Of a stretch of DNA of 64,000 nucleotides, positions 308 through 11,842 are shown piece by piece. Position numbers and translations under genes: made by a program. The stretch comes from Microbacterium trichothecenolyticum. Lineage in GTDB: Bacteria > Actinomycetota > Actinomycetes > Actinomycetales > Microbacteriaceae. Location: assembly GCF_030818955.1 (NCBI RefSeq), contig NZ_JAUTBF010000001.1, positions 682,001 through 746,000 of the forward strand, given 5' to 3'. The notes under the pieces were generated by a model. It saw only the letters and a list, made by a program, of their open reading frames with translations, searched no databases and was not told the origin of the DNA. How positions within the stretch are numbered: position 1 is the stretch's first letter; each line of letters opens with the position of its first letter.

Positions 308-606
308 TTTCCCGGCAGATGCGCCTGCGACAGATACGCCGTCGCCCGTCGCAGCACCTCGACCTCCTGCTCCAGCAGCCGGTTGCGCGCCCGCAGTTCG
401 CGGACCTCGGCGTCTCGGTTAGTTGGCGACGGAGCACCGGTATCGGCAGCGGTCTTCTCGGCGCGGGAGCGGGCGAGCCACTTCGTGAGGGTCATCGGGT
501 GGACCCCGAAGTCGGCGGCGATTCGCTCGATCGTCACACCGGGCTCACGGTTCTCGGCGACACGCACCACGTCGTCGCGGAACTCCTTCGGATAAGGCTT
601 GGGCAC
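289..606 (-). CDS. IS3-family transposase OrfA (helix-turn-helix, leucine zipper)
   Basis: A protein of 105 residues beginning at a GTG (VPKPYPKEFRDDVV). It has the amino-terminal helix-turn-helix of IS3 OrfA (ERIAADFGVHPMTLTKWLAR) and a carboxy-terminal zipper-like coiled coil (VRELRARNRLLEQEVEVL), used in the family for end binding and multimerisation. The frame ends 16 codons after the zipper region, overlapping orfB in the -1 frame. An upstream ATG in the same frame is less likely because it lies at the element's terminus. The protein looks intact. Confidence 0.85.
   Translation of the reverse strand: MPKPYPKEFRDDVVRVAENREPGVTIERIAADFGVHPMTLTKWLARSRAEKTAADTGAPSPTNRDAEVRELRARNRLLEQEVEVLRRATAYLSQAHLPGKGSTRS
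306..310 (-). promoter_or_regulatory. A-AAA-G programmed -1 frameshift site of the IS3 element
   Basis: On the minus strand the codons GGA AAA GGC near the end of orfA contain A-AAA-G. A one-base backward slip turns the following codons into AGG CTC TAC CCG, which begins the conserved OrfB sequence. This is the known IS3-family mechanism for making OrfAB. Confidence 0.7.
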
Positions 607-657
607 GATGGCATCCTTCCAGGCCCGTCCTGCGGGGCAAGCCAGATCAGATGTCAC

Positions 658-1086
658 CTATCCGTGCAGCAGACCCAGCTGCTCCTGCACTGTCTCGTAC
701 CGGCGCAGGTAAACCTGCCGCCCGAGAGGTTTGTCGAGCTTGATGATCAAACGCTTGATGTATTGAGCGTGAAGCTCCTGCAGTTCCAGGTCGTAGCCGT
801 AGCCGTCGATGACCGCGGGGACGACAGGCGCGACGCGAAAGAATCCGCCGAAGATGAAGTAGTTCGGCCCGTACGGGTAATACTGCGCCCAAGCCATCAG
901 GTAACGGGCATCCCTCATGTTGTTGTTCGCGCTGACGGCGCGCCATCGGCTGAGGTTCAGCCATTCGGGGTGGTCGTCGACGAGGAAGTCCCATGCCTCG
1001 CCGCCGCCGTTGCCGGCACGCATGTTGAACTTCAGCTTCGTGGAGGCCGGCTCGGGCACGGGCAAGAAGTCCGCGAGGCGGATCAT
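658..1086 (-). pseudogene. GIY-YIG nuclease-family protein, amino-terminal fragment cut by the IS element
   Basis: The 142-residue frame (MIRLADFLPVPEP..., YYPYGPNYFIFGGFFRV, YIKRLIIKLDKPLGRQVYLRRY) resembles the amino-terminal, non-nuclease half of actinobacterial GIY-YIG-family proteins, from memory of the family. The frame stops three codons before the IS terminus, and the expected GIY-YIG catalytic half is absent, so the IS insertion or the events around it removed it. The visible part contains no frameshift. A second and much more degraded copy of the same sequence lies at 6885–7076. The family assignment is moderately confident; the truncation is clear from the abrupt end at the IS. Confidence 0.55.
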
Positions 1087-1147
1087 CGGTGGCCCGAGCT
1101 GGTTAACATGAATGAAGGCTACCGAGTGTGAATTCGCGACAGTTGCG

Positions 1148-1173
1148 CCCGATCAGACCTGTACGTGATCGGG
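1148..1173. repeat. Inverted repeat CCCGATCA-N10-TGATCGGG
   Basis: A perfect 8-base inverted repeat with a 10-base loop lies just past the 3' end of the minus-strand TOMM operon. It could be the operon's terminator (there is no T tract) or a protein-binding site for whatever lay upstream of the GIY-YIG gene. I cannot choose between these. Confidence 0.4.
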
Positions 1174-1208
1174 AAGACTCACCGCAAGTCCCGCCCGGAA
1201 CTCAGCAT

Positions 1209-1808
1209 TTATAGGAACCGAAGAGTTTCTCTTTCTGGCCCATAGACGGTTCGGCGAGTTGCCTGCGAGTCATTGAAGATGGGGTACCACGATGAGCGAG
1301 GTTCTGAGCATGGTTGGGCACGGACGGAGGTTCCGAAAACCTTCAAGTAGAAATTATCGCTGGCGCTTGGTCGAGGTGAATACAACCGGCTGCCGACGAT
1401 CCCCCCACCGATGCCGAGTTCGGTGGGATTGACGCCGGATACACCATGGCCCTCCCAGAGGCCCGTGGTGGCGCCCAACGGGTCGGCAAAGACGGCGATG
1501 CGGCCGGAGCAGCCGATGGGCACTGGTGGGGTGAGCGTCCTGCCGCCGGCCGCTCGAATGCGGTCGAGGGCGTCCTCCAGGTTGGGAGTGTGCAAGTAGG
1601 TGGCCCATTCGGTGGCCGCAGTGAGGCCGAACATCTTCGGGCCGATGGCCGCGACTTCCTGGTATCCGGCGTAGGCGATGCAGTAGGAATTCTGATCGGG
1701 TGCGGGTGCGAAGCTCCAACCGAAGTGCTGCGCATAGTAGCGACATGCCGCGACAACGTCGTCGACGCGAAGTTCCCACCAGCAGGGTTGGCCTTCCCGG
1801 ATTCTCAT
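1209..1808 (-). CDS. VOC-fold (glyoxalase/bleomycin-resistance type) protein, last gene of the TOMM operon
   Basis: A protein of 199 residues. Residues 1–125 form a recognisable VOC module (PCWWELRVDDVVAACRYYAQHFGWSF near the start, then ATYLHTPNLEDALDRIRAAGG, then FADPLGATTGLW). Related actinobacterial proteins usually have two such modules in about 260 residues; here the second is short and poorly conserved, so the protein is probably truncated or diverged. It starts with an ATGA overlap with the permease gene, so it is translated with the exporter. VOC proteins include antibiotic-binding resistance proteins such as those that sequester the bithiazole drug bleomycin. A self-protection role against an azole-containing peptide is my inference; an enzymatic role is also possible. 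Confidence 0.75.
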   Translation of the reverse strand: MRIREGQPCWWELRVDDVVAACRYYAQHFGWSFAPAPDQNSYCIAYAGYQEVAAIGPKMFGLTAATEWATYLHTPNLEDALDRIRAAGGRTLTPPVPIGCSGRIAVFADPLGATTGLWEGHGVSGVNPTELGIGGGIVGSRLYSPRPSASDNFYLKVFGTSVRAQPCSEPRSSWYPIFNDSQATRRTVYGPERETLRFL

Positions 1809-2524
1809 CGGTGCACGGTCCGTTCGACGCGGCGATACCCCACTCCCGCAGCGATCGCGAACACCGCCGCGTATCCCACACCGACCAGGATGGCTTGCCC
1901 GGCCGGCGCATTGGTGAGAGCGGCGTAGATGAGGTCCATCCATGCGCCGGTGGGTGACCAGGGATGAATAGCACCGAGCAGACCGTCGGTGACGGGTCCG
2001 AACAGTCCGCCGATGAAGGACAAGGGAAAGTAGATCAGGTTCGTGATACTGGCGGCACCGCGGGCGGGAAGCCAGTAGCCCAGGGCGAGCCCGAACAGCC
2101 CGTGAACGATCGCACCGAGGAGGAGCGCTCCGAGGACGGCTGCCACAGTCGGGACGGACAGCGGGTGGAGCTTGCCTGCGACGAACGCTGCGGCGGAGAT
2201 CGGGATGCAGAAGGCGGTGGAGAAGAGTGCGCCAGAGGTAAGGAGCGCAGCAATGCGCTGCCATGCCCGTCCGGGCAGGGTGAGGGTGTACGTATTCCAT
2301 GGGTCGTCTCTGGTGGCGGCGATGCCGACACCGAACTGGAACATCATCGTCCCGAGGATCGCGAAGGCGCAGTACCCCAGGTAAATCAGGTCGGTGCTAC
2401 CAGGTTGTTGGAGGCCAAGAAAGAGGTAGAGAACCGTCGGAAAGACCGCGAGCGGTAGCAGGAAGGAGGGTAGTCGCAGCAGTTCTTGGACGCTCGCCCG
2501 AACCGAGGCGATGACGATGCTCAC
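1805..2524 (-). CDS. ABC-2-type transporter permease of the TOMM operon
   Basis: A protein of 239 residues starting at a GTG that overlaps the ATPase stop codon (GTGA). About six hydrophobic segments are visible, for example around FLLPLAVFPTVLYLFLGL, LIYLGYCAFAILGTMM, VAAVLGALLLGAIVHGLFGL and AILVGVGYAAVFAIAAGV, which is the usual layout of ABC-2 export permeases. With the adjoining ATPase it should form a small homodimeric exporter for the mature modified peptide or provide self-immunity. Overlapping starts and stops on both sides place it firmly in the operon. Confidence 0.85.
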   Translation of the reverse strand: MSIVIASVRASVQELLRLPSFLLPLAVFPTVLYLFLGLQQPGSTDLIYLGYCAFAILGTMMFQFGVGIAATRDDPWNTYTLTLPGRAWQRIAALLTSGALFSTAFCIPISAAAFVAGKLHPLSVPTVAAVLGALLLGAIVHGLFGLALGYWLPARGAASITNLIYFPLSFIGGLFGPVTDGLLGAIHPWSPTGAWMDLIYAALTNAPAGQAILVGVGYAAVFAIAAGVGYRRVERTVHR

Positions 2525-3450
2525 CGCTGACCGTCCGTCTTCACATCGTTGCGGCCATTGTCGCCTCCGGCCAGGAGCGACTCGATCGCCTCCGCCAGGG
2601 TGGGCTTCCGGATGAGCAGCCCCGGATTGGGAAGGGTGTTCAGGATCAGTCGCGCTACCGCATCCGGCCGCTCGGTGATGGCCTCCACTCGACCGCAGGA
2701 AAGGCTCACGCGGGCACCCGGGTCGCACCGATAGATCATGGGCAGCACCTGGTCGACCGTGCTCGTGAACGTGAGTGTGATTCCATCGAGTTGGTCCTTG
2801 ATCCCGGCGACGTCGTCGGACGCCACGAGCCGCCCATGAGCAATGAGCTGGATGGTGTTGGCAATCTGTTCTACTTCCCCCAGATCGTGAGAGGCGACCA
2901 GCACGGTGCGGCCCTCCTGTCCGAGAGCTCTGATCAGTTGGTGCAGCTGCTGCTGACCGGGGACGTCCAAACCGGCAACAGGTTCATCCAGAACCACCAC
3001 CGGCGCGTTCCCCACGAGCGCGCACGCCAATCCGAGACGACGCGTCTGCCCGCCAGACAGCCCCCCACACAAGGACCTAGCCTGTTCTGCTAACCCGGCC
3101 CAATTGAGTACCTCGCGCACCGGCACTGGGGCGGGATAGTGCGCGGCAACCAAGCGCAGGACCTCCTCGACCGTCAAGGTGGCAGGGAAAGTCAATGCTT
3201 GCGGGGCGAAGCCGATCAGCTTGGAGGCTTCACCACCGCGTCGGACTCGGTGATCGGCAACCCACACCTCGCCGCGGTCGGGCCGACGAGCGCCGGTCAA
3301 CAGCGCGAACGCAGTCGACTTTCCCGCTCCATTGGCCCCAAGGATGCAATGAACACCCGCGCCGAGGGACAAGCTAAAATCGTCCAACGCCGCCACTTCA
3401 CCGAAATGTTTACTCACCCGTCTCCACTGAACGGTGGTTGCAGTACTCAT
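2521..3450 (-). CDS. ABC transporter ATP-binding protein of the TOMM operon
   Basis: A protein of 309 residues. Walker A is GANGAGKST (residues 38–46), the signature is LSGGQ (131–135), Walker B is VVVLDEP (151–157), and the switch histidine lies in VLVASHDL (about 188). All catalytic motifs are present. The start is the ATG overlapping the dehydrogenase stop (ATGA at 3447–3450). The last 90 residues are an accessory domain of the kind found on ABC-2 exporter ATPases. It drives the adjoining permease, and by position exports or protects against the azole peptide. Confidence 0.9.
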   Translation of the reverse strand: MSTATTVQWRRVSKHFGEVAALDDFSLSLGAGVHCILGANGAGKSTAFALLTGARRPDRGEVWVADHRVRRGGEASKLIGFAPQALTFPATLTVEEVLRLVAAHYPAPVPVREVLNWAGLAEQARSLCGGLSGGQTRRLGLACALVGNAPVVVLDEPVAGLDVPGQQQLHQLIRALGQEGRTVLVASHDLGEVEQIANTIQLIAHGRLVASDDVAGIKDQLDGITLTFTSTVDQVLPMIYRCDPGARVSLSCGRVEAITERPDAVARLILNTLPNPGLLIRKPTLAEAIESLLAGGDNGRNDVKTDGQR

Positions 3451-4244
3451 GAGATTTCGATCGGGTGTCCGAAGGCAGCACTGTGCACGGCGGAGGCAGC
3501 GACGCCATCCAATCCGAATGTTGTATCCACATCCCGGTCGAAGAAGCCACCGACGGTGCACGCGCCGATACCTTCCGCTTCGGCGATGAGAAGCATGCTC
3601 TGCACGAGGTGCCCGGCCTCAATCAGGGCGAACCGGTATGCGCGCTGTCCGTACTTCACGCGAACACGATCAAAATTAGCGACAGTGAACACATGGAACG
3701 CTGCTGTCCCGGCGAGATCCTGGTAGGCCAGCACCGAAATGAGCCATTCCCGCGGGTCGCGGGTGATGTTCAACGGCAGAAGACGGTGATGATAGGGATC
3801 ATATCCGTAGAAGCCTGCGTGAACATCATCGACGTTTGCAACGGTGACGTAGCAGTCCAACGGATACAGCGCCCCTGGTGACGGCGTTCCTCTCCCGTAT
3901 GCGGTTGTGATCCCAGCTGCCTCGTCAAGCACCCGATAGAGTACCTGGCTGGCCACCGGCCGCCCGTCATCGAAAATGGGCAGGGATCGGCGGGATCGGA
4001 GAGCGTCGATCACACCCACAACGCTTTCCTGAGTGTCCTCGGGTGCGCGTATTGCCGAGGGGCCGGAGGCGAATACCGTTGGCGTACCGAAGCGCGCCAA
4101 CGCTGCCGGATCGGTCGCGAACTCGTACGCGTACGCCTCGGAATAGGCCCCGCTCACCAGCGGCGACATCTTGGAAGCTACGAGGAAATTTTCCGCCGGG
4201 TCGTCCAGACCGGGCACCGGCAGCGGTCGGAACTGATCATTCAC
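3447..4244 (-). CDS. SagB-type FMN-dependent azoline dehydrogenase (TOMM B protein)
   Basis: A nitroreductase-fold protein of 265 residues. Visible family features are the LRSRRS segment (82–87), the flavin-binding PSPGALYPL (121–129), and KYGQRAYR with the Lys-Tyr pair (197–198) known to be needed in McbC/SagB enzymes, followed by FALIEAGHLVQ. It should oxidise azolines to aromatic thiazoles and oxazoles with FMN. I chose the GTG at 4244 because AAAGGGG sits five bases upstream; a GTG at 4259 overlapping the YcaO stop is the alternative and would add five residues. The YcaO and E1-like genes next to it separate it from ordinary nitroreductases. Confidence 0.88.
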   Translation of the reverse strand: MNDQFRPLPVPGLDDPAENFLVASKMSPLVSGAYSEAYAYEFATDPAALARFGTPTVFASGPSAIRAPEDTQESVVGVIDALRSRRSLPIFDDGRPVASQVLYRVLDEAAGITTAYGRGTPSPGALYPLDCYVTVANVDDVHAGFYGYDPYHHRLLPLNITRDPREWLISVLAYQDLAGTAAFHVFTVANFDRVRVKYGQRAYRFALIEAGHLVQSMLLIAEAEGIGACTVGGFFDRDVDTTFGLDGVAASAVHSAAFGHPIEIS

Positions 4245-4255
4245 GAGGGCCCCTT

Positions 4256-5503
4256 TCACGGAAACGGATGAGGAACAGCGTTGGCAATCACCGGCAGCTG
4301 CGCCCGGTGGATTGCGGTGACGTCGAGGGTCGCGGCATTCGGGCTGAGCGCGCGGATCACATGCCAGCCTGCAGTTCGGACATCTGAAGAAGCGACGTCC
4401 GCCAAGTACACGGTCCACCCGGCACTTGCGCATCGGGACAAGGCACCCTCGAGGGTGAGTTCCGGTCCGGCCAAGAACTCAGTGACGCTGATGCGGGAAC
4501 CGCTGTCGATGAATGCGTTCAGCGGCTTGTTGACCGGGTTGGCGTGAAGAGCGATGTGAGACTCCAACGACACCATCTCGTCAGTGAACCGTGCAGGTTC
4601 GATCGTCGTGGCCCAATTATGCGTGTGGACGCATTCGATGAAAGCTGCCCGCAGAGCCTGCTGGAGGGTTGGCTTGGCGGCGCACCCGACAGCGAGCCCG
4701 ACGGTCTCAGAGCGAGCGCAAGCCAGCACACCGGACAGCCCACCGACCGCCGGCATCTTCACAAATCGAACCCGCACTCCCCGGAGTTGCACTCGCTTGG
4801 CCATCGCAGTGGCCTCGGGGTCAAGAGCACCGCTCTTCAGAACGTCCTCCAACGTCACGACGGGGTGCGTGAAGCCTCCGTACCATGCTCGGAGGAAGCT
4901 GTCTCGTTCGATAAGTTCGAACACCGCGGCCCGAGCTGCGGCTCCCGCCGTGCGGTGCGCGGCCAGCCCGTTGGAGGAAATGGTGCACCACTGACTTTCC
5001 CCGGTGGCACGCAGGTACACCAAGTCAGCTGGAACTCCCACCTGGTCCCCGCTGATCGGATCAACAGCCCAGACGTGTGCAACCTCGCCCGTTGCCGGCG
5101 GTGGGCTGAAGGGAAATCCCGGTGTTTGGTACTGGTCGTGGGTGAAGGGGAGCCACTGGGCCAGGCCCGTCCGGCGCTCGACGGGGATCTCGGGGAACGT
5201 GTCTGGAGTGATCGCCGCTGCGTATCGCTCGATCACTTCCCCCGTGCCCGATCCAATCAGTTGCTCCGCCGTGAAGCCAAACCCGGTAGCCGGTCGCGCC
5301 GGCGCATCAGTCAGGGTGAATGCGGGCAGGCGTGGCATGTCCATCATCACGGCTGCCGCTTGTATGTTCCCCGGTCGCACTCGGGTTGGGATGACGCGGC
5401 TGATGACCCCGAAATCGGGGCCTATGAGTCCGTCGCGGAGCTGTCGGGGCGCAACCAGGGATAACTGGTCGAGTAGGTCTCGATCGCGGAACAGGTTGGG
5501 CAC
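4256..5503 (-). CDS. YcaO cyclodehydratase (TOMM D protein)
   Basis: A YcaO protein of about 415 residues that uses ATP to activate the peptide backbone and cyclise Cys, Ser and Thr into azolines. ATP-site motifs are visible: SGTGEVIERYA (about 85–95), SSNGLAAHRTAGAAARAA (176 on) and ELIERD (196–201). The carboxy terminus is PHPFP, matching the P-x-P-x-P end typical of azoline-forming YcaO proteins and not of other YcaO types. The start is uncertain: a GTG at 5503 has GGAG nine bases upstream, and a TTG at 5518 is possible. Either overlaps the preceding gene by more than 80 bases in another frame, which is unusual. No frame damage is seen. Confidence 0.92.
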   Translation of the reverse strand: MPNLFRDRDLLDQLSLVAPRQLRDGLIGPDFGVISRVIPTRVRPGNIQAAAVMMDMPRLPAFTLTDAPARPATGFGFTAEQLIGSGTGEVIERYAAAITPDTFPEIPVERRTGLAQWLPFTHDQYQTPGFPFSPPPATGEVAHVWAVDPISGDQVGVPADLVYLRATGESQWCTISSNGLAAHRTAGAAARAAVFELIERDSFLRAWYGGFTHPVVTLEDVLKSGALDPEATAMAKRVQLRGVRVRFVKMPAVGGLSGVLACARSETVGLAVGCAAKPTLQQALRAAFIECVHTHNWATTIEPARFTDEMVSLESHIALHANPVNKPLNAFIDSGSRISVTEFLAGPELTLEGALSRCASAGWTVYLADVASSDVRTAGWHVIRALSPNAATLDVTAIHRAQLPVIANAVPHPFP

Positions 5504-6306
5504 CGGGGCACGCTCCAAACTCGTGAGGTGTACATGGTGAGATCGGTCAAGTTCAGCGATGTTGCATGCCCCACCGCGTCGTCATCGCGGCTCACAAACG
5601 CTCGTTTGATCAACCGAACGCCCACACGGGCGGCGAGCGCCAGGTCCTCCGTCTTCCAGCGCCGCACAAACGCCGGGCTTTCCGTCAGCGCCCAGTAGTC
5701 GTCGGCGTTTACTGCCGTGCCGCTATTTCGCAATCGCAGACACGTGTAGCACGCGGTGACCGGGGGGAGCGCTAGTGGGCCGATCAAGGCCGCCCGCCCG
5801 TTCGGGGCGCTCAAGGGCAGGTGCGGCCGCTGCGCTGTCCAAGCGGCGACTGCCATCTTCGACAGCTCCGCGGGGGCGGAGGACACAAGGAAAATGACAT
5901 CGGCTAGCTCTGACGCCGTGGTCGTGACGTCTTCTGCCTCCGTCAACGCCGAACGCACCACGGATGCCAGAGCCTCATCGTCGCTCTCGACACCGATGTG
6001 CAGCGCACGATTCTCGGTCAGCGCATAGTCGAACGTCGCTGCTAGACCCGGAGTGTGGGTACGCCGTCGCGCCGGGTACGTCGTGAGTACGCCCGCGGAG
6101 ATTAACCGTTCGGCCAGATCGATCGCGTCGACCTCCGGGACGGCCTGCGTCAGATGTTCGGGGGAAACCCCGCCGGACATGGCGCTGAAGAAACGCTCCA
6201 CCAGTTTCCCCTCGGTGGGGAACCGCAAGGTGGTGCGGTCTCGCACGACGACAAAGCCGTCCCGGAAATCGCACCACCCCACGCCCGGAGCAAGCCGGTA
6301 CTGCAT
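5422..6306 (-). CDS. E1-like TOMM cyclodehydratase partner / leader-binding protein (C protein)
   Basis: A protein of 294 residues. The first 80 residues (MQYRLAPGVGWCDFRDGFVV..., LAERLISAGVLTTYP) look like the winged-helix leader-recognition domain found at the start of TOMM C proteins. The rest is a diverged E1/ThiF-like domain with two cysteine pairs, CYTC (186, 189) and CPTC (269, 272), likely a zinc site. It should bind the precursor's leader and deliver it to the YcaO enzyme. The ATG is three bases past the precursor stop codon (TGAGCATG), so the two are probably translationally coupled. Its last 80 bases or so also encode the start of the YcaO protein in another frame. Confidence 0.82.
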   Translation of the reverse strand: MQYRLAPGVGWCDFRDGFVVVRDRTTLRFPTEGKLVERFFSAMSGGVSPEHLTQAVPEVDAIDLAERLISAGVLTTYPARRRTHTPGLAATFDYALTENRALHIGVESDDEALASVVRSALTEAEDVTTTASELADVIFLVSSAPAELSKMAVAAWTAQRPHLPLSAPNGRAALIGPLALPPVTACYTCLRLRNSGTAVNADDYWALTESPAFVRRWKTEDLALAARVGVRLIKRAFVSRDDDAVGHATSLNLTDLTMYTSRVWSVPRCPTCSAIETYSTSYPWLRPDSSATDS

Positions 6307-6308
6307 GC

Positions 6309-6476
6309 TCAGTTCTTTCTTCTCCCACCCGCGCAGCAGGACGTCGTGGTCGAGGTACACAGCGAGAAGTCCATGGTGTACGTGTCCGCACCCGGACCCG
6401 TCATCTCGAACTCAATTTTGACTGCATCAGACATGGGCGCGCACGCGGGCGCAGGCTCCATCGTTGCGATACTCAT
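6309..6476 (-). CDS. TOMM precursor peptide, 55 residues with a CTSTTTSCC core
   Basis: A short gene directly upstream of the modification genes. An AAAGGAG ribosome-binding site stands five bases before the ATG. The peptide starts MSIATMEPAPACAPMSDAVK, continues with an acidic, hydrophobic leader (IEFEMTGPGADTYTMDFSL), then has Cys40-Thr-Ser-Thr-Thr-Thr-Ser-Cys-Cys48, nine successive cyclisable residues, and ends AGGRRKN. This is the layout expected of an azole-peptide substrate: leader first, Cys/Ser/Thr core near the carboxy terminus. A leader cysteine (Cys12) is probably not modified. The cleavage site is not evident; a cut before or within MDFSL is a guess. I do not recognise the sequence as any characterised peptide. 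Its length makes it easy to miss in automatic annotation. Confidence 0.88.
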   Translation of the reverse strand: MSIATMEPAPACAPMSDAVKIEFEMTGPGADTYTMDFSLCTSTTTSCCAGGRRKN

Positions 6477-6884
6477 TGCTACTCCTTTCGGTCGACTTGC
6501 GTCGGGGGCTCCACCGCGTCAAACCATCAGCAGTGATGCGTCTCCCACCTCGATTCGTAGCGTCGTCTCGCGGGCGAAAGCTGCGGACGCGCGAACCTTG
6601 CAGACAGGGTGAGAGTCGAGAAAAGGGGCCTTTACCGCCCGCACAAGTCGATGAGGCGGCTCGCGTGTTCGAGAGTTGGGTACGCGATCTGAGGCCGGCT
6701 CTCGATACCTGGCTCATCCTCCTAGTCGTCATCCCTCTGTCACCGCTCACCCATGGTGCGTCGGAGCGATAAGCGGTGTGAACCACCTGATCGGTGAGGC
6801 AGCTATGCATGACGCGCCTGCGCTCCACGTGGAGCGAAGCCCATCCTGCAGACGGCATGCGGCGCACGACAAGGAGCGAGCTGC
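6477..6884. other. Region upstream of the TOMM operon without a convincing gene
   Basis: This stretch should hold the operon promoter on the minus strand. A TTGACG that could be a -35 lies about 45 bases before the precursor's ribosome-binding site, but I see no good -10 at a proper distance. Open frames exist on both strands but have no recognisable sequence, no matching ribosome-binding sites and atypical composition. The sequence looks like decayed DNA joined to the second GIY-YIG remnant. Confidence 0.4.
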
Positions 6885-7076
6885 TCCTGCACGGTCGTAC
6901 CTGCGAAGATCGCCCTGTCGCCCTAGTGACTTGTCGAGCTCGATGACCAGACGCTCGATGTACTGGGCTCCACGTGGTAGCCGGAGCCGTCCGTCACGGA
7001 ACGCATCACTGGCGTGATCCGGAGAAGATCGCCGAAGAAGATCCCACGTTTCATCGCCGCCGTTGCCGGCACGCAT
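6885..7076 (-). pseudogene. Second, internally deleted copy of the GIY-YIG-family gene
   Basis: Read on the minus strand this begins MRAGNGGDETWDLL and later has YIERLVIELDKSLGRQGDLRRYD. These match MRAGNGGGEAWDFL and YIKRLIIKLDKPLGRQVYLRRYE in the fragment at 658–1086. Most of the middle is deleted and both ends are lost, so it is a dead remnant. The two remnants have the same orientation and bracket the TOMM operon. Confidence 0.7.
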
Positions 7077-7084
7077 GTGGGAAT

Positions 7085-7420
7085 CTAGTTATGTGGAGTG
7101 AGCTCGGGTAGCGAAGGGTGCGGTAGCAGCGCAGCTGGTCGTCGCGACCGATACGGGTGCTCAGAGCGATCGAAGATCATCGTGTTCTCCCACGTCGGCT
7201 GAATGTGTGGCGGCAGAGCACCGTCATCGGCGTACCCGGGGTCGATCTCATAGTCGTTAGCGAGCAGCAGCCATTGCACGGCCGCTGTCGCACTCTGTGG
7301 CGCGTCCGGTCCGAGCCTGATGGCCCGTATGGGCAACTTCGGCGCCGCGCCGGCGTTGTCGACCACAGCACCCCACTTGCCGGTCGGGCTGGTCACGAGC
7401 CGGCCGTGAGGTCGTGGCCC
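7085..7420 (-). pseudogene. Unrecognised coding remnant, carboxy-terminal part
   Basis: The minus-strand frame ending at 7085 contains a stretch that reads like real protein (SATAAVQWLLLANDYEIDPG, then PPHIQPTWENTMIF) before a less protein-like tail. I do not recognise a family. Upstream the same frame degenerates into low-quality sequence opposite the peptidase fragment, so this is at most the end of a broken gene. Confidence is low; it could be a chance frame. Confidence 0.25.
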
Positions 7421-7471
7421 CATGCTGCTCGGAGTCGTGTCCCGGGCGCTGCTGCGCGCCGCTCGCGCTCT

Positions 7472-8104
7472 CTCGTAACCGTGCACGGAGGATTCGGTCT
7501 GTCCCTGCAGCCCGTGTCGGGCATCTCCGACCGCGCCGACGACCTCGACATGCTCTTCGCTCATGTTCGGGGTGGCGGCGAGCTCGGCAGCGGATGGGCC
7601 TCCGCGGGCCGCGGGCAGCGCAAGCGTCAGGCGCTCGACGATATCGGCGCCGTTGTCCGCCACGAATCCGCGTGTCGTCGCACCGTCAGCCTGATGGGCA
7701 CCTCGCACGGTGGATGGCTGGCATTGCTGTGTGCTCTTCGCCACCCGTCGCTCATCGACCGGGTGTGCGTCACTTCGCCGATCACGCACCTGCCTGCCTA
7801 CTTGCGTTCGGATATGGGGCGGAAGCACCGCGCTGAGTTCCCACCCGAGGACGTTCTCGACCAGTTCGATCCGATGACGCGTATCGCACGGGCGACCGGC
7901 GTCGTCCCCGACCTCATGATCGTGCACGGGGCAGCGGACACGACGGTCCCGAACCAGGATCCTGAGGCCTTCGCTGCGGCATGGCGGCGCGCAGGGGGTC
8001 GGTGTCGCATCGTTCGACATTCCGGAGGCCATTACGGTCCCACGGACGGCGAGGCTCCGCGCATCGTGCGCGAGCAGAGGAGCTTCGTCGGGGTCGATGC
8101 CTGA
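7472..8104 (+). pseudogene. Prolyl-oligopeptidase (S9) family fragment, catalytic domain only
   Basis: From about 7472 the frame reads LVTVHGGFG..., AHVRGGGELGSGW, then the nucleophile elbow GTSHGGWL, then VHGAADTTVPNQD with the acid residue and GGHYGPT with the histidine, so the triad of an S9-type serine peptidase is in place. The usual 350–400 residue beta-propeller is missing. The same frame continues upstream to 7157 but with no similarity to the family. The region between HGGFG and AHVRGGG is shortened. I read it as a truncated gene. It is not obviously part of the TOMM operon, being on the other strand. Confidence 0.6.
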
Positions 8105-8171
8105 CAAATGTCACATCTGCCGGTGATGCCGGGTCCTGGCCGAAACCGGACTCGGACATCACTGTAGAAGC

Positions 8172-9185
8172 ATGGTCGACAGTCACTCTTCGGCGTCTCT
8201 TCCTTCCCTCAGCATGGACCGTGTCGATTCCGCGATCGTCGTCGAGCAGGCGCGTTGCGCATACGACGATTTCGTCGCGGTGGATGACGTGTCCTTCACG
8301 GTGCGTCAGGGCGATGTGCATGCCCTCCTCGGGACCAACGGCGCGGGAAAGACGACTCTGCTGGAGAACATCCAGGGCTTTCGTCAGCCCGCTGATGGAA
8401 CGATCCGAGTGTTCGGACGAGACCCGTGGCGAAACCGGACGACGCTGGCGGCGAGGACAGGCACGATGCTGCAGGAATCGTGCTTGGTCGACGAGATGAC
8501 GGTGGCGCGTCAACTGTCGCTCTGGCGCTCGATCAGTGTGCGTGAGGACTCGACAGACCGTGTGCTGGAGATCGTCGGGCTGACCCACCGCAGGAAGGTG
8601 CCGGTTGCGGTTCTCTCCGGCGGAGAACGACGCAGGCTCGACTTCGCGATGGCCATTTGGGGGAGCCCCGAGTTGCTCATTCTCGACGAACCGACCACCG
8701 GACTGGATCCGCAGTCGCGCCGCGCGATGTGGGAGATCATCGGCGACCTGCACGCAAAAGGATCGACCGTTCTCCTCACCACCCACTACCTCGACGAAGC
8801 GCAGAGCCTCGCGGATCACGTGACGATCCTGGATCGGGGCAAGGTCGCCGTCGCCGGGTCCCTCGCCGACGTGCTCGACAGCATCCCCGCGCGGATCTCG
8901 TTCACCTGTCATGCCGCCGTCGGCGAGCTGGCCGGGCTGCGGACACGCCTCCATGGAGCACTGGATGCCGCGGGCGACGCATCGATGAGCAGTGTGGAGA
9001 TCCGCACCGGTGCGTTGCAGGAAGACGTCAGCACGGTCATGGACTGGGCGCGCGCGCAGAGCCTGAGCCTCGGCAGCTTCCGTTGCTCCCCGGCATCCCT
9101 CGAGGACGTGTTCTTCACGATGCCCACAGCCGCAGCCTCCCGCGGAGCGACGCGCCCGGAAATGACGACAGGAGGAGCACGATGA
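8172..9185 (+). CDS. ABC transporter ATP-binding protein (first gene of the transporter/two-component module)
   Basis: A protein of 337 residues with Walker A GTNGAGKTT (54–62), signature LSGGE (148–152), Walker B LLILDEP (168–174) and the H-loop in LLTTHYLDEA. The layout is that of DrrA/CcmA-like ATPases of drug or antimicrobial-peptide exporters. A second start at 8214 (MDRVDSAIVV) would better fit family lengths. It ends in an ATGA overlap with the permease gene. The gene starts about 70 bases after the peptidase fragment and is co-directional with the permease, kinase and regulator that follow, so the four probably form one operon. Confidence 0.88.
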   Translation: MVDSHSSASLPSLSMDRVDSAIVVEQARCAYDDFVAVDDVSFTVRQGDVHALLGTNGAGKTTLLENIQGFRQPADGTIRVFGRDPWRNRTTLAARTGTMLQESCLVDEMTVARQLSLWRSISVREDSTDRVLEIVGLTHRRKVPVAVLSGGERRRLDFAMAIWGSPELLILDEPTTGLDPQSRRAMWEIIGDLHAKGSTVLLTTHYLDEAQSLADHVTILDRGKVAVAGSLADVLDSIPARISFTCHAAVGELAGLRTRLHGALDAAGDASMSSVEIRTGALQEDVSTVMDWARAQSLSLGSFRCSPASLEDVFFTMPTAAASRGATRPEMTTGGAR

Positions 9186-9988
9186 CGGTGACACCGCCGC
9201 TCACCTCGACGGCCGACAACCCGGGGCGGCGCACCCCGCGAGGAGAAAGAAAGAGCGCCCCACGCCTGATCTTCGCGCTCGCCGCGGCCGAGATCGGCGT
9301 TTTCTTGCGGCAACCGGTGATAATCGCCCTGACCCTTCTGCTGCCTGCCGGCCTGCTTGCCATCACAGCGCTGGGACCGACCTCGGGGGGTGCCGAGCTC
9401 TGGGCCGAGACGGCGGGCCGCAACATGGTCGCCACACAGTGCATCACGGTCTATTTCGTCGCGTTGAACACCCTGACGGCGCGCCGCCACACACTCGCGC
9501 TCAAGCGCCTGCGCAGCACTTCGCTTCCCAGCGCCGGCATCGTGGCGGGGCTTCTGGTCCCGCCGCTGCTGGTGGGCGGGTTCCAGATCGTGGTGATCTT
9601 CGCCGGCATGATGCTTCTCGGCGCTCCCGCCCCCCAACGCCCTCTGCTCGTGGCGATCTCCGCGGTGCTCGGGATGAGCGTCGCTGCTCTGGCGGGCGTG
9701 ATGACCAGCGGTTTCACGGCCACACCGGAGAAGGCGCAATGGACGATGATGCCGCTCTTCGTGGCGGCGCTCGGGGCCACCGCGGTTCTGCCCGTCGTCG
9801 ATGCGGGGCTCGCGGTCGCCGTGCGCGCGGTTCCGTTGGTGGCGAATGCTCACCTAGCGGCGGCAGGATGGTACTCGGCGACGGAGGATGTCGGCGCGGT
9901 CGCGCTCGATCTGATCTACATCGTCGCGTGGGGCGGTTTCTTCGCTCTGATCAGCTGGAAGACGTTTCGCTGGGAGAGACGGCACTGA
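9182..9988 (+). CDS. ABC-2-type transporter permease
   Basis: A protein of 268 residues, with a short cytoplasmic start followed by about six membrane segments (IIALTLLLPAGLLAITAL, GIVAGLLVPPLLVGGFQIVV, VAISAVLGMSVAALAGVM, LFVAALGATAVLPVV, and a last one near LIYIVAWGGFFALISW). It partners the preceding ATPase through an ATGA overlap. The likely role is export of a small toxic molecule or peptide, controlled by the two-component system immediately downstream. The substrate cannot be read from the sequence. Confidence 0.85.
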   Translation: MTVTPPLTSTADNPGRRTPRGERKSAPRLIFALAAAEIGVFLRQPVIIALTLLLPAGLLAITALGPTSGGAELWAETAGRNMVATQCITVYFVALNTLTARRHTLALKRLRSTSLPSAGIVAGLLVPPLLVGGFQIVVIFAGMMLLGAPAPQRPLLVAISAVLGMSVAALAGVMTSGFTATPEKAQWTMMPLFVAALGATAVLPVVDAGLAVAVRAVPLVANAHLAAAGWYSATEDVGAVALDLIYIVAWGGFFALISWKTFRWERRH

Positions 9989-9995
9989 CGAGCAC

Positions 9996-11234
9996 GTGAA
10001 GATGCGGGGGCGGATGAGCGGCGACGGGCGAGAACACGACGGTCTCCGTGCCATCTCGCTGTACGTGCACGCGACCCACGTGATCCTCGCGGTGGCGACG
10101 GTGGCGCTGCCCACGGCCGCCTTCATCGTCGATCCTCGACCTTTCGCCATGGTCGGCCCGGGAGCTGTGTCAGCGATCATCGTCGGTGCGGGCGGCGCGT
10201 TCCTCGTCGCAGCCACGTTCGCTCCTCATCACCGACTCGCCCGATGGTTGCAGAGACCGGGCGCTACGACAGGGCTGCGCCTGGCCGTGCTCGCTGCCGC
10301 TGTCGTCGTCGAAGCCCTCCTTCCGCCCGCCTCGCCGCCCCATCTCGCCGAGGCGGTCCCGATCGCGTGGGCGCTGTTGGCTGTCACAGGCGGTTTCTCG
10401 CGGCGCGGAATGGCGCGATTGCTCGCCTCCGCGGTGGGCATCGGGATCGTGACGTGGACGGTCGACTTCGTGGTGGGGCGGGACTGGGAAGCCGTCACCC
10501 TGATCGTCGCAGCCTTGCTCACACTCGGAGTGTTCGGACAGGACGTGGTCTACACGCTCGCCATCGAGCTCGACGATCTCCGCACGCGCGAGGCCGAGCG
10601 TGCCGTGCTCACGGAACGCAGGAGGTTCGCCGGCGACCTCCACGACATCCAAGGTCAGCATCTGGGACTCATCACGGTGGAGTCCGAATTGGTCAGAAGA
10701 CTGATCGCACGCGGTGACTACGCCGCAGCGGCAGCGCACGCCGAACGGGTCCAATCGATCACCATCGAAGCCCTCGACGAGATGCACCGGGTCGTCCACG
10801 CGAATCGCGAGGTCCGTCTCGACGAAGAAATCGCCAATGCGATGCGCGTGCTCCGGTCCGCGGGAATCTCCGCCCGCCGGAATACCGCCGATGTGTCCTC
10901 TCTCGATGACGAAACGGACCGCCTGCTCGGTCTCACCGTCCGCGAGGCGATCACGAACGTCCTCAAGCACACGCGGGCGCGTACCTGTTCGATCGAAGCG
11001 CGATATGAACGCCGCCAAGGCCGAGAGGGCGTTTCCCTCGTCGTCGTGGACGCTCCATCGAGCGCCCGGCCCATACCTTCGACCGGCGGGATGTCATCCG
11101 GGACGGGCTTGAAGACCCTCGCTGAGAGATATCGCCGACGGGGCGGGACTTTCGCATTCGACCAGAGCGATGGCGGCCGCCTTGTCGGATGGCTCCCTCT
11201 CGCGAACCCCGGCCCCCAAGGAGACGCATCATGA
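9996..11234 (+). CDS. Sensor histidine kinase, DesK/NarL-partner type
   Basis: A protein of up to 412 residues. The first 195 residues hold about five or six membrane segments and no large extracellular domain, as in DesK-like kinases. Next is a HisKA_3 dimerisation segment, ERRRFAGDLHDIQGQHL, with phosphoacceptor His216, then the ATP-binding region (REAITNVLKHTRA N-box and the glycine motif GTGLKTLAERYRRRGG). The start could be the GTG at 9996 or the ATG at 10014, which has GGGGG just upstream. It overlaps the response-regulator gene by ATGA and lies eight bases after the permease, so transporter and sensor are probably co-expressed. Confidence 0.87.
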   Translation: MKMRGRMSGDGREHDGLRAISLYVHATHVILAVATVALPTAAFIVDPRPFAMVGPGAVSAIIVGAGGAFLVAATFAPHHRLARWLQRPGATTGLRLAVLAAAVVVEALLPPASPPHLAEAVPIAWALLAVTGGFSRRGMARLLASAVGIGIVTWTVDFVVGRDWEAVTLIVAALLTLGVFGQDVVYTLAIELDDLRTREAERAVLTERRRFAGDLHDIQGQHLGLITVESELVRRLIARGDYAAAAAHAERVQSITIEALDEMHRVVHANREVRLDEEIANAMRVLRSAGISARRNTADVSSLDDETDRLLGLTVREAITNVLKHTRARTCSIEARYERRQGREGVSLVVVDAPSSARPIPSTGGMSSGTGLKTLAERYRRRGGTFAFDQSDGGRLVGWLPLANPGPQGDAS

Positions 11235-11842
11235 ACCCCATCAAAGTGGTCCTCGCCGACGACGAGCAACTCCTCCGGGAGGCAGTCGTGACCCTGCTCA
11301 GTCTCGACGAAGACATCGAGATCGTCGGCACTGCTCGCGACGGCGCTGACGCCGTCGACGTCGTCGCGCGCACGCGACCGGACATCGCCGTACTGGACCT
11401 GGAGATGCCCCATCGCGACGGGCTCGAGGCCGCCGCCGAGATCCGCGCCGCATCACCCGATACCCGGGTGGTGCTCCTCACGCGTTACGCCCGCCCGGCT
11501 GCGCTGCGACGGGCTCTCGAAGCCGGCGCTGTCGCCTTCGTCACGAAGGCGACTTCCGTCACAGAGTTGCCGCACATCCTACGCACGGTGCACGACGGCG
11601 GCCGCTATGTGGACGGTTCCGTCGCGACCGCCGCGTTGTCTGAGAGTGGATGCCCCCTCACGGATCGCGAGATCGACGTTCTGCGGGAGTCGATCGACGG
11701 CGCAACGGTGAGGGTGATCGCCGAGCGTACGCATCTCGCGCAGGGCACCGTGCGCAATTACCTCTCGACAGCGATGACAAAACTCGGAGCAGAGACCCGC
11801 GTGGGCGCGGCGCGCATCGCGTGGAGCGAGGGATGGATCTGA
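11231..11842 (+). CDS. Response regulator, NarL/LuxR type
   Basis: A protein of 203 residues. The receiver domain has the acidic pair Asp10-Asp11, phosphorylation site Asp56 in VLDLEMP, and the conserved Lys in AFVTKATS. The carboxy-terminal 60 residues form a LuxR-type helix-turn-helix (LTDREIDVLRESIDG..., HLAQGTVRNYLSTAMTKL). It is the partner of the preceding DesK-like kinase and by position probably controls the ABC transporter genes. Confidence 0.92.
   Translation: MNPIKVVLADDEQLLREAVVTLLSLDEDIEIVGTARDGADAVDVVARTRPDIAVLDLEMPHRDGLEAAAEIRAASPDTRVVLLTRYARPAALRRALEAGAVAFVTKATSVTELPHILRTVHDGGRYVDGSVATAALSESGCPLTDREIDVLRESIDGATVRVIAERTHLAQGTVRNYLSTAMTKLGAETRVGAARIAWSEGWI

Follow-up and report, generated by a model that had tools for sequence, protein, structure and literature searches.

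The window analysed here is a 64,000-nucleotide stretch of the Microbacterium trichothecenolyticum genome (contig NZ_JAUTBF010000001.1, positions 682,001 to 746,000), and it carries at 1209-6476, on the minus strand, an operon for a linear azole-containing peptide (LAP). We consider it very probable (about 0.9) that this operon belongs to a separate LAP subfamily, that it makes and exports a thiazole/(methyl)oxazole peptide, and that it was acquired horizontally. The gene content, the conserved residues, the type of precursor and a six-gene unit present at 10 loci in nine genomes are direct observations. The predicted genes, in order of transcription and with the evidence for each, are as follows.

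6476-6309, minus: LAP precursor, 55 amino acids; hidden Markov model (HMM) of relatives' precursors, leader motif, Cys/Ser/Thr run
6306-5422, minus: E1-like leader-peptide-binding protein (C protein), 294 amino acids; TIGR03882
5503-4256, minus: YcaO cyclodehydratase (D protein), 415 amino acids, PHPFP C-terminus; PF02624; GTG start chosen by us
4244-3447, minus: SagB-type flavin mononucleotide (FMN) dehydrogenase (B protein), 265 amino acids, Lys197-Tyr198; TIGR03605; GTG start
3450-2521, minus: ATP-binding cassette (ABC) transporter ATPase, 309 amino acids; PF00005
2524-1805, minus: ABC-2-type permease, 239 amino acids; likeness to the permeases of related operons; GTG start
1808-1209, minus: VOC (glyoxalase/bleomycin-resistance superfamily) protein, 199 amino acids, second domain shortened; PF00903

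All seven minus-strand open reading frames (ORFs) named in a preliminary description of this DNA are present, with gaps of +2, -82, +11, -4, -4 and -4 bases between consecutive genes from the precursor to the VOC gene. Pfam and NCBIfam profiles identify the E1, YcaO, SagB, ATPase and VOC proteins.

The conserved six-gene unit and its precursor family

Nine further loci, spread over eight genomes from a different family within the order (G941, G1102, G1100, G1099, G1114 with two loci, G1133, G1166 and G1098), carry the first six genes in unchanged order, with a precursor related to that of the window. At all nine the E1, YcaO, SagB, ATPase and permease genes follow one another in identical order, and a small precursor ORF stands directly ahead of the E1 gene or slightly overlaps it. 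Start codons of the relatives were our choice, and the G1099-type E1 protein of L107 is thereby without its first residues. Genome G1114 holds two six-gene operons (L104 and L107) with different precursors at separate places. In G1098 (L108, 9731-11221) the YcaO gene is split over two frames while the remaining operon genes are open, and that copy is therefore probably inactive.

The transporter genes are part of this unit. The ATPase scores 82.6 bits against PF00005 (ABC_tran; cut-off 25), its best profile is of the DrrA type at a score under that model's cut-off, and it is 42-45% identical to the ATPases of all nine related operons. Pfam matches to the permease stay below threshold (best 22.5 versus 26.9 bits); its counterparts in the nine operons are 40-52% identical to it. 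The VOC gene is different. Its product matches PF00903 at 35.1 bits (cut-off 20.6), but by eye its second VOC domain is about 60 residues short, with 199 residues in total against 251-370, mostly 251-283, in the ORFs of its relatives. Because the gene has no match at any of the nine related loci and its second domain is shortened, we place it outside the conserved unit; its assignment to the operon in the preliminary description does not stand, and a role as the immunity gene of the family is ruled out by the same absence at all nine loci. Likewise, the statement that all seven genes are intact holds for the six conserved ones, which are full-length, with frames open throughout and conserved residues retained, and fails for the VOC gene.

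The window precursor (...MSDAVKIEFEMTGPGADTYTMDFSLCTSTTTSCCAGGRRKN) consists of an acidic leader with the motif VKIEFEMTG, which resembles LKELDFE, a core of CTSTTTSCC and a basic tail, AGGRRKN; upstream of its ORF lies AAAGGAG, which resembles a ribosome-binding site. Precursors of the relatives include ...MPMALKELDFEAGGALVTPAKMNGDTVTLSSSCSSARPTSPKAP and ...MPELLKELEFEFTGSTARTATMQDGVSLCSSTSCSCSSTTKPSQP. CTSTTTSCC is the longest Cys/Ser/Thr run with at least two cysteines among the 554 window ORFs of at least 30 residues (the next longest is 8), and when the residues of the precursor were shuffled 200,000 times, a run of equal length arose in 25 cases. An HMM built from the precursors of eight relatives, excluding the window and G1166 (identical to G1133), ranks the window precursor first among the 554 ORFs with an E-value of 9e-4, the runner-up having 0.23. 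When its leader was compared with those of seven distinct relatives, left after near-copies had been removed, the score was matched by 2 of 1000 of its own shuffles. All 10 precursors share an acidic leader (charge -3 to -8), a following Cys/Ser/Thr run of 5-12 and a C-terminal tail of 5-9 residues with a net charge of +1 to +3; most tails contain proline, and that of the window does not. The window precursor matches no Pfam or NCBIfam model, and the precursors of four relatives match none in NCBIfam.

Among 396 genomes of the order, one full-length YcaO relative turned up, G941 (45% identity). In searches around it, with G941 itself counted, eight of 197 genomes of its family match at an E-value of 1e-80 or better and four more distant ones at 1e-39 to 1e-21; within its genus five of seven genomes match, and in a second genus three of four. 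Outside the window's own genome, full-length relatives were found neither among 198 relatives (best E 2e-18), nor in 394 genomes of the class (8e-26), nor in 366 genomes of the genus (4e-14), where the window's genome is the one that has the operon and 18 others have distant YcaOs. Across 296 genomes of the phylum, only the window genome matched at 1e-30 or better. These searches score only the few candidates per genome that rank highest in a permissive initial screen, and a miss is therefore not proof of absence. Named genome contigs gave no close relative when searched with the window YcaO alone, and when they were searched again with the window and G941 YcaOs as a pair, the sole match was a Dysgonomonas YcaO (21% identity). 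Twelve plasmid records carry YcaOs, at no more than 28% identity to that of the window, and the DNA of 658-8200 shows no similarity to plasmids. Viral contigs yielded a single match of 59 residues to the window YcaO and none when scanned with the family alignment.

Biosynthetic enzymes and leader removal

The three modification proteins each retain the features of their class. The E1-like protein matches TIGR03882 at 46.3 bits (cut-off 36.9), and its Cys186, 189, 269 and 272, which form two CxxC pairs, are kept at all 10 loci. The best PDB matches to its AlphaFold2 model are TruD and LynD, followed by MccB and the McbBCD complex, and in our reading the N-terminal strands and helices of the model would fit a leader-binding winged helix. 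The YcaO protein scores 124.8 bits against PF02624 (cut-off 25.7). Eight of its residues (E89, E92, R93, S177, G179, E196, E199 and R200), all within the region aligned with TruD and LynD, are invariant in the nine intact members of the family, each of which also ends in PHPFP. The SagB-type protein matches both the nitroreductase family PF00881 (71 bits, cut-off 23.5) and TIGR03605 (124.7 bits, cut-off 78.4), and its K197-Y198 pair, kept at 10 of 10 loci, aligns with K201-Y202 of McbC, which we take to be the catalytic pair of that enzyme.

In the pathway we propose, the E1-like protein would hold the 55-residue precursor by its leader, through VKIEFE..G (LKELDFE..G in the relatives), and present the core to the YcaO protein. 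The latter, using ATP, would cyclise as many as nine Cys, Ser and Thr residues of CTSTTTSCC, giving thiazolines and (methyl)oxazolines, and the SagB-type enzyme would oxidise some or all of these azolines to azoles. A protease encoded elsewhere would cut off the leader, and the ABC pair would export the product and may also protect the producer. The order of steps, the ring chemistry and the export are modelled on the known biochemistry of E1, YcaO and SagB proteins.

Several results weigh against this pathway. The model of the E1-like protein is of moderate confidence, with a mean predicted local distance difference test score of 70 and a predicted template modelling score of 0.58. The YcaO reaches 141.9 bits with the SagD model TIGR03604, under its curated cut-off of 219.25, which is also missed by family member G941 (159.4) and by the two other YcaOs of the window's own genome (174.9 and 199). 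When a profile of the family YcaOs is compared with the PDB, the top match is MJ1094 (E 3e-8), with TruD behind it (E 4e-7). MJ1094 is listed as uncharacterised; we assume it to be a thioamidation-type YcaO, not a heterocyclase. Together with low-scoring hits on TIGR03266, a model for thioamidation (24.4 bits for the window YcaO, 36.9 for that of G941), this would suit an enzyme that makes a different backbone change, a thioamide or amidine, with the remaining genes serving that reaction. We judge such a product highly improbable, as an E1-like protein and a SagB dehydrogenase accompany the YcaO at all 10 loci, the PHPFP end is present in every intact member, the SagD model far outscores TIGR03266 on the window protein, and the cores are rich in Cys, Ser and Thr.

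Leader removal is a further difficulty for the azole-peptide pathway. The operon contains no leader protease, and TldD/E, on which leader removal in microcin B17 relies according to PMC10885120, was detected through PF19289 in none of the nine carrier genomes, the same search being positive in 10 of 14 control genomes. TldD/E is thus rejected as the leader protease, and the description of the operon as complete is uncertain, since a protease is lacking in the operon and TldD/E is undetected in the carriers. Beside the operon, the plus-strand ORF at 7157-8104 encodes an alpha/beta-hydrolase with a prolyl-oligopeptidase-type catalytic domain (PF00326); its first 130 residues match nothing, and it looks like a remnant. 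Because it has no match at any of the nine related loci, we do not favour it as the leader protease. Finally, a promoter and terminator scan of 600-7200 found no terminator and one promoter-like site, within the VOC gene; the scan was built for sigma-70 sites, and one such site is no more than chance would give.

Placement among known azole peptides

In a tree of 33 chosen YcaO sequences, the long ones reduced to their last 460 residues, the family forms one clade with support of 100/100, separate from plantazolicin-like (94/96) and thiopeptide (100/100) clades. The broken YcaO of G1098 was excluded from the tree and from the family alignment (A2). 'Plantazolicin-like' is our label, based on FEP..AA precursors in five of the six rows, all but G1233. 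'Thiopeptide' follows annotation for Actinomyces oris only; G139, G833 and G177 were so called for having two YcaO matches on one contig and grouping with Actinomyces oris. With the database size held constant, the window YcaO reaches 328-360 bits against the eight intact family loci, 192 against the broken locus and at most 125 against anything else fetched, with plantazolicin-like YcaOs next best at 97-125 bits.

Cox et al. 2015 (PMC4603692) group LAPs by YcaO links at a BLAST E-value below 1e-54. The window YcaO matches the eight intact family loci at 3e-107 or better, within that limit, and the plantazolicin-like proxies, none of which is the true plantazolicin YcaO, at 1e-29 or weaker; since E-values depend on database size, the comparison with 1e-54 is a rough one. 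From these sequence comparisons, in which proxies stand in for the group proteins of Cox et al., the operon family looks like a LAP subfamily of its own.

Among the closest known systems is the plantazolicin group, for which our proxies were the Corynebacterium tuberculostearicum plasmid NZ_CP073097.1, G874 and G910. As in the window, their E1-like, YcaO and SagB genes are separate, follow one another in this sequence and are accompanied by a small precursor, and the plasmid adds an ABC ATPase and permease, placed in front of the E1-YcaO-SagB genes. This shared layout and the second-best YcaO scores would be expected of a plantazolicin-group offshoot making a similar product. Their precursors, however, read FEPTAARCSC..., their YcaOs are 24-30% identical to that of the window, and the two YcaO clades are separate. 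According to Cox et al. 2015 (PMC4603692), 12 clusters of the 13-member plantazolicin group encode an Arg-specific methyltransferase, and in 10 the core begins with Arg. The precursors of our family have neither the FEP..AA motif nor an Arg-initial core, and Pfam and NCBIfam find no methyltransferase among the seven genes. We therefore reject membership of that group, and an offshoot of it is the least probable of the alternatives.

With the microcin B17 synthetase McbBCD the window operon shares the modelled E1 fold and the SagB Lys-Tyr pair, and differs from microcin B17 in the TldD/E-dependent leader removal discussed above. Plasmid pPB of Lactiplantibacillus plantarum (NZ_CP104086.1) has a hypothetical protein, YcaO and SagB followed by an ABC ATPase and permease, but an insulinase-family protease lies between its SagB and ABC genes and its YcaO is 22.7% identical. 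YcaO-made azoles in actinomycetes are also found in goadsporin, coryneazolisin and the thiopeptides. Goadsporin has lanthipeptide-like dehydratases in its cluster. So does a thiazolylpeptide plasmid of Actinomyces oris, and coryneazolisin clusters hold them too, according to Cox et al. (PMC4603692). No lanthipeptide-type dehydratase was found among the seven genes or the flanking ORFs scanned with Pfam, a subset of the window ORFs, and the YcaO lies outside the thiopeptide clade; a thiopeptide is rejected on both counts. The propionisin and cytolysin groups of Cox et al. (PMC4603692) resemble our family in a contiguous heterocyclisable core and, behind it, a C-terminal stretch devoid of Cys, Ser and Thr, and the propionisin clusters have ABC transporters as well; unlike the window operon the propionisin clusters carry CaaX-like proteases, and these two groups were compared by features other than their YcaOs.

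Taken with the profile matches, the invariant residues, the modelled E1 fold and the YcaO tree, these comparisons bear out the preliminary description of a plain LAP operon, unlike thiopeptides and plantazolicin, with neither a methyltransferase nor a lantibiotic dehydratase among its seven genes. Of its claim that no described cluster is known with this gene order and precursor, the part on gene order does not stand: the order is ordinary for LAPs, as the C. tuberculostearicum and Lactiplantibacillus plasmids illustrate, and the novelty seems to sit in the precursor family. No described LAP of this kind is among the literature matches listed, all from open-licence papers, which is weak evidence of absence. 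Two papers mention predicted LAP clusters, without sequence in those passages, in an Arthrobacter genome (PMC9228311) and a Rhodococcus (PMC10456417), and a member of the family may thus already have been flagged by automatic tools.

Several other YcaO loci were observed alongside. The window's own genome has two further YcaO/SagB loci of other clades (L053, 1255000-1274999, and L054, 1746000-1765999), one with a luciferase-like monooxygenase and the other with an M50-type protease and ABC genes. In G730, of the same genus, three small ORFs in a row (L089, 2757-3225, minus strand) with cores such as VCACTCSCGCTSTSC lie near a distant YcaO and probably mark another azole-peptide cluster. Next to plantazolicin-like YcaOs, two genomes of the class each have paired 41-residue precursors (L041, 12978-13378; L042, 12798-13193) that end in runs such as SSSSLVCCCCCS.

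Probable acquisition, integrity and meaning of the operon

The operon genes contain 59-65% G+C, and their third-position G+C is 0.68-0.78 versus 0.89-0.95 in seven core genes, whose names, except for the DNA polymerase III delta subunit, were assigned by eye. This low third-position G+C, and the presence of the operon in one of 366 genomes of the genus, make it probable that the operon was acquired. It is flanked by two unequal, like-oriented copies of the phage-type gene phrog_26160 (658-1086 and 6747-7078, both minus), which match at 677-768/6879-6968 (78%) and 977-1025/7029-7078 (84%). The right copy is broken; the left one encodes 142 residues and may itself be incomplete, as the open frame at that position in a relative from the genus is 334 residues long. 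A transposase identified by Pfam, to which we give the label IS3-type, adjoins the operon. In several species of the G941 genus the operon stands between asd-like and murB genes (by eye, with murB identified by Pfam in two) and so looks resident there. These observations point to horizontal transfer into the window's lineage. Further along, at 8172-11842 on the plus strand, a DrrA-type ABC ATPase, a permease-like ORF (by eye), a histidine kinase and a LuxR-type response regulator lie in a row; third-position G+C is low in these genes too, and they could form a peptide-sensing and resistance set.

The same surroundings could mean that the operon, though a LAP operon in its ancestry, is now decaying or silent, having recently been imported next to broken mobile genes and having a damaged last gene. 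The shortened VOC domain, the unequal phage-type copies, the adjoining transposase, the low G+C of the operon and the split YcaO of the relative G1098 all lean that way. Yet the six conserved genes are full-length with their conserved residues intact, and damage to the VOC gene, which is not conserved, says little about the others; we regard decay as unlikely.

By analogy only, we would guess that the product is likely an antibacterial. More speculatively, and with more doubt than belief, we suggest an undescribed subfamily in which a leader of the acidic LKELDFE..G type precedes a short series of thiazole and oxazole rings and a 5-9-residue basic tail retained in the mature peptide. A housekeeping protease, though not TldD/E, would remove the leader, and the block of rings with its tail could act inside cells, for example on the ribosome or gyrase, in a way unseen in named LAPs.

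Several narrow-spectrum antibiotics that differ in their targets are LAPs, and the family described here appears to be a new subfamily of this known kind, useful and testable, that introduces no new principle. The missing leader protease is a concrete gap that can be tested. As the ten clusters share a minimal gene set while their cores vary in length and sequence, they form a natural series for assigning functions to the leader motif, the run of rings and the basic tail.

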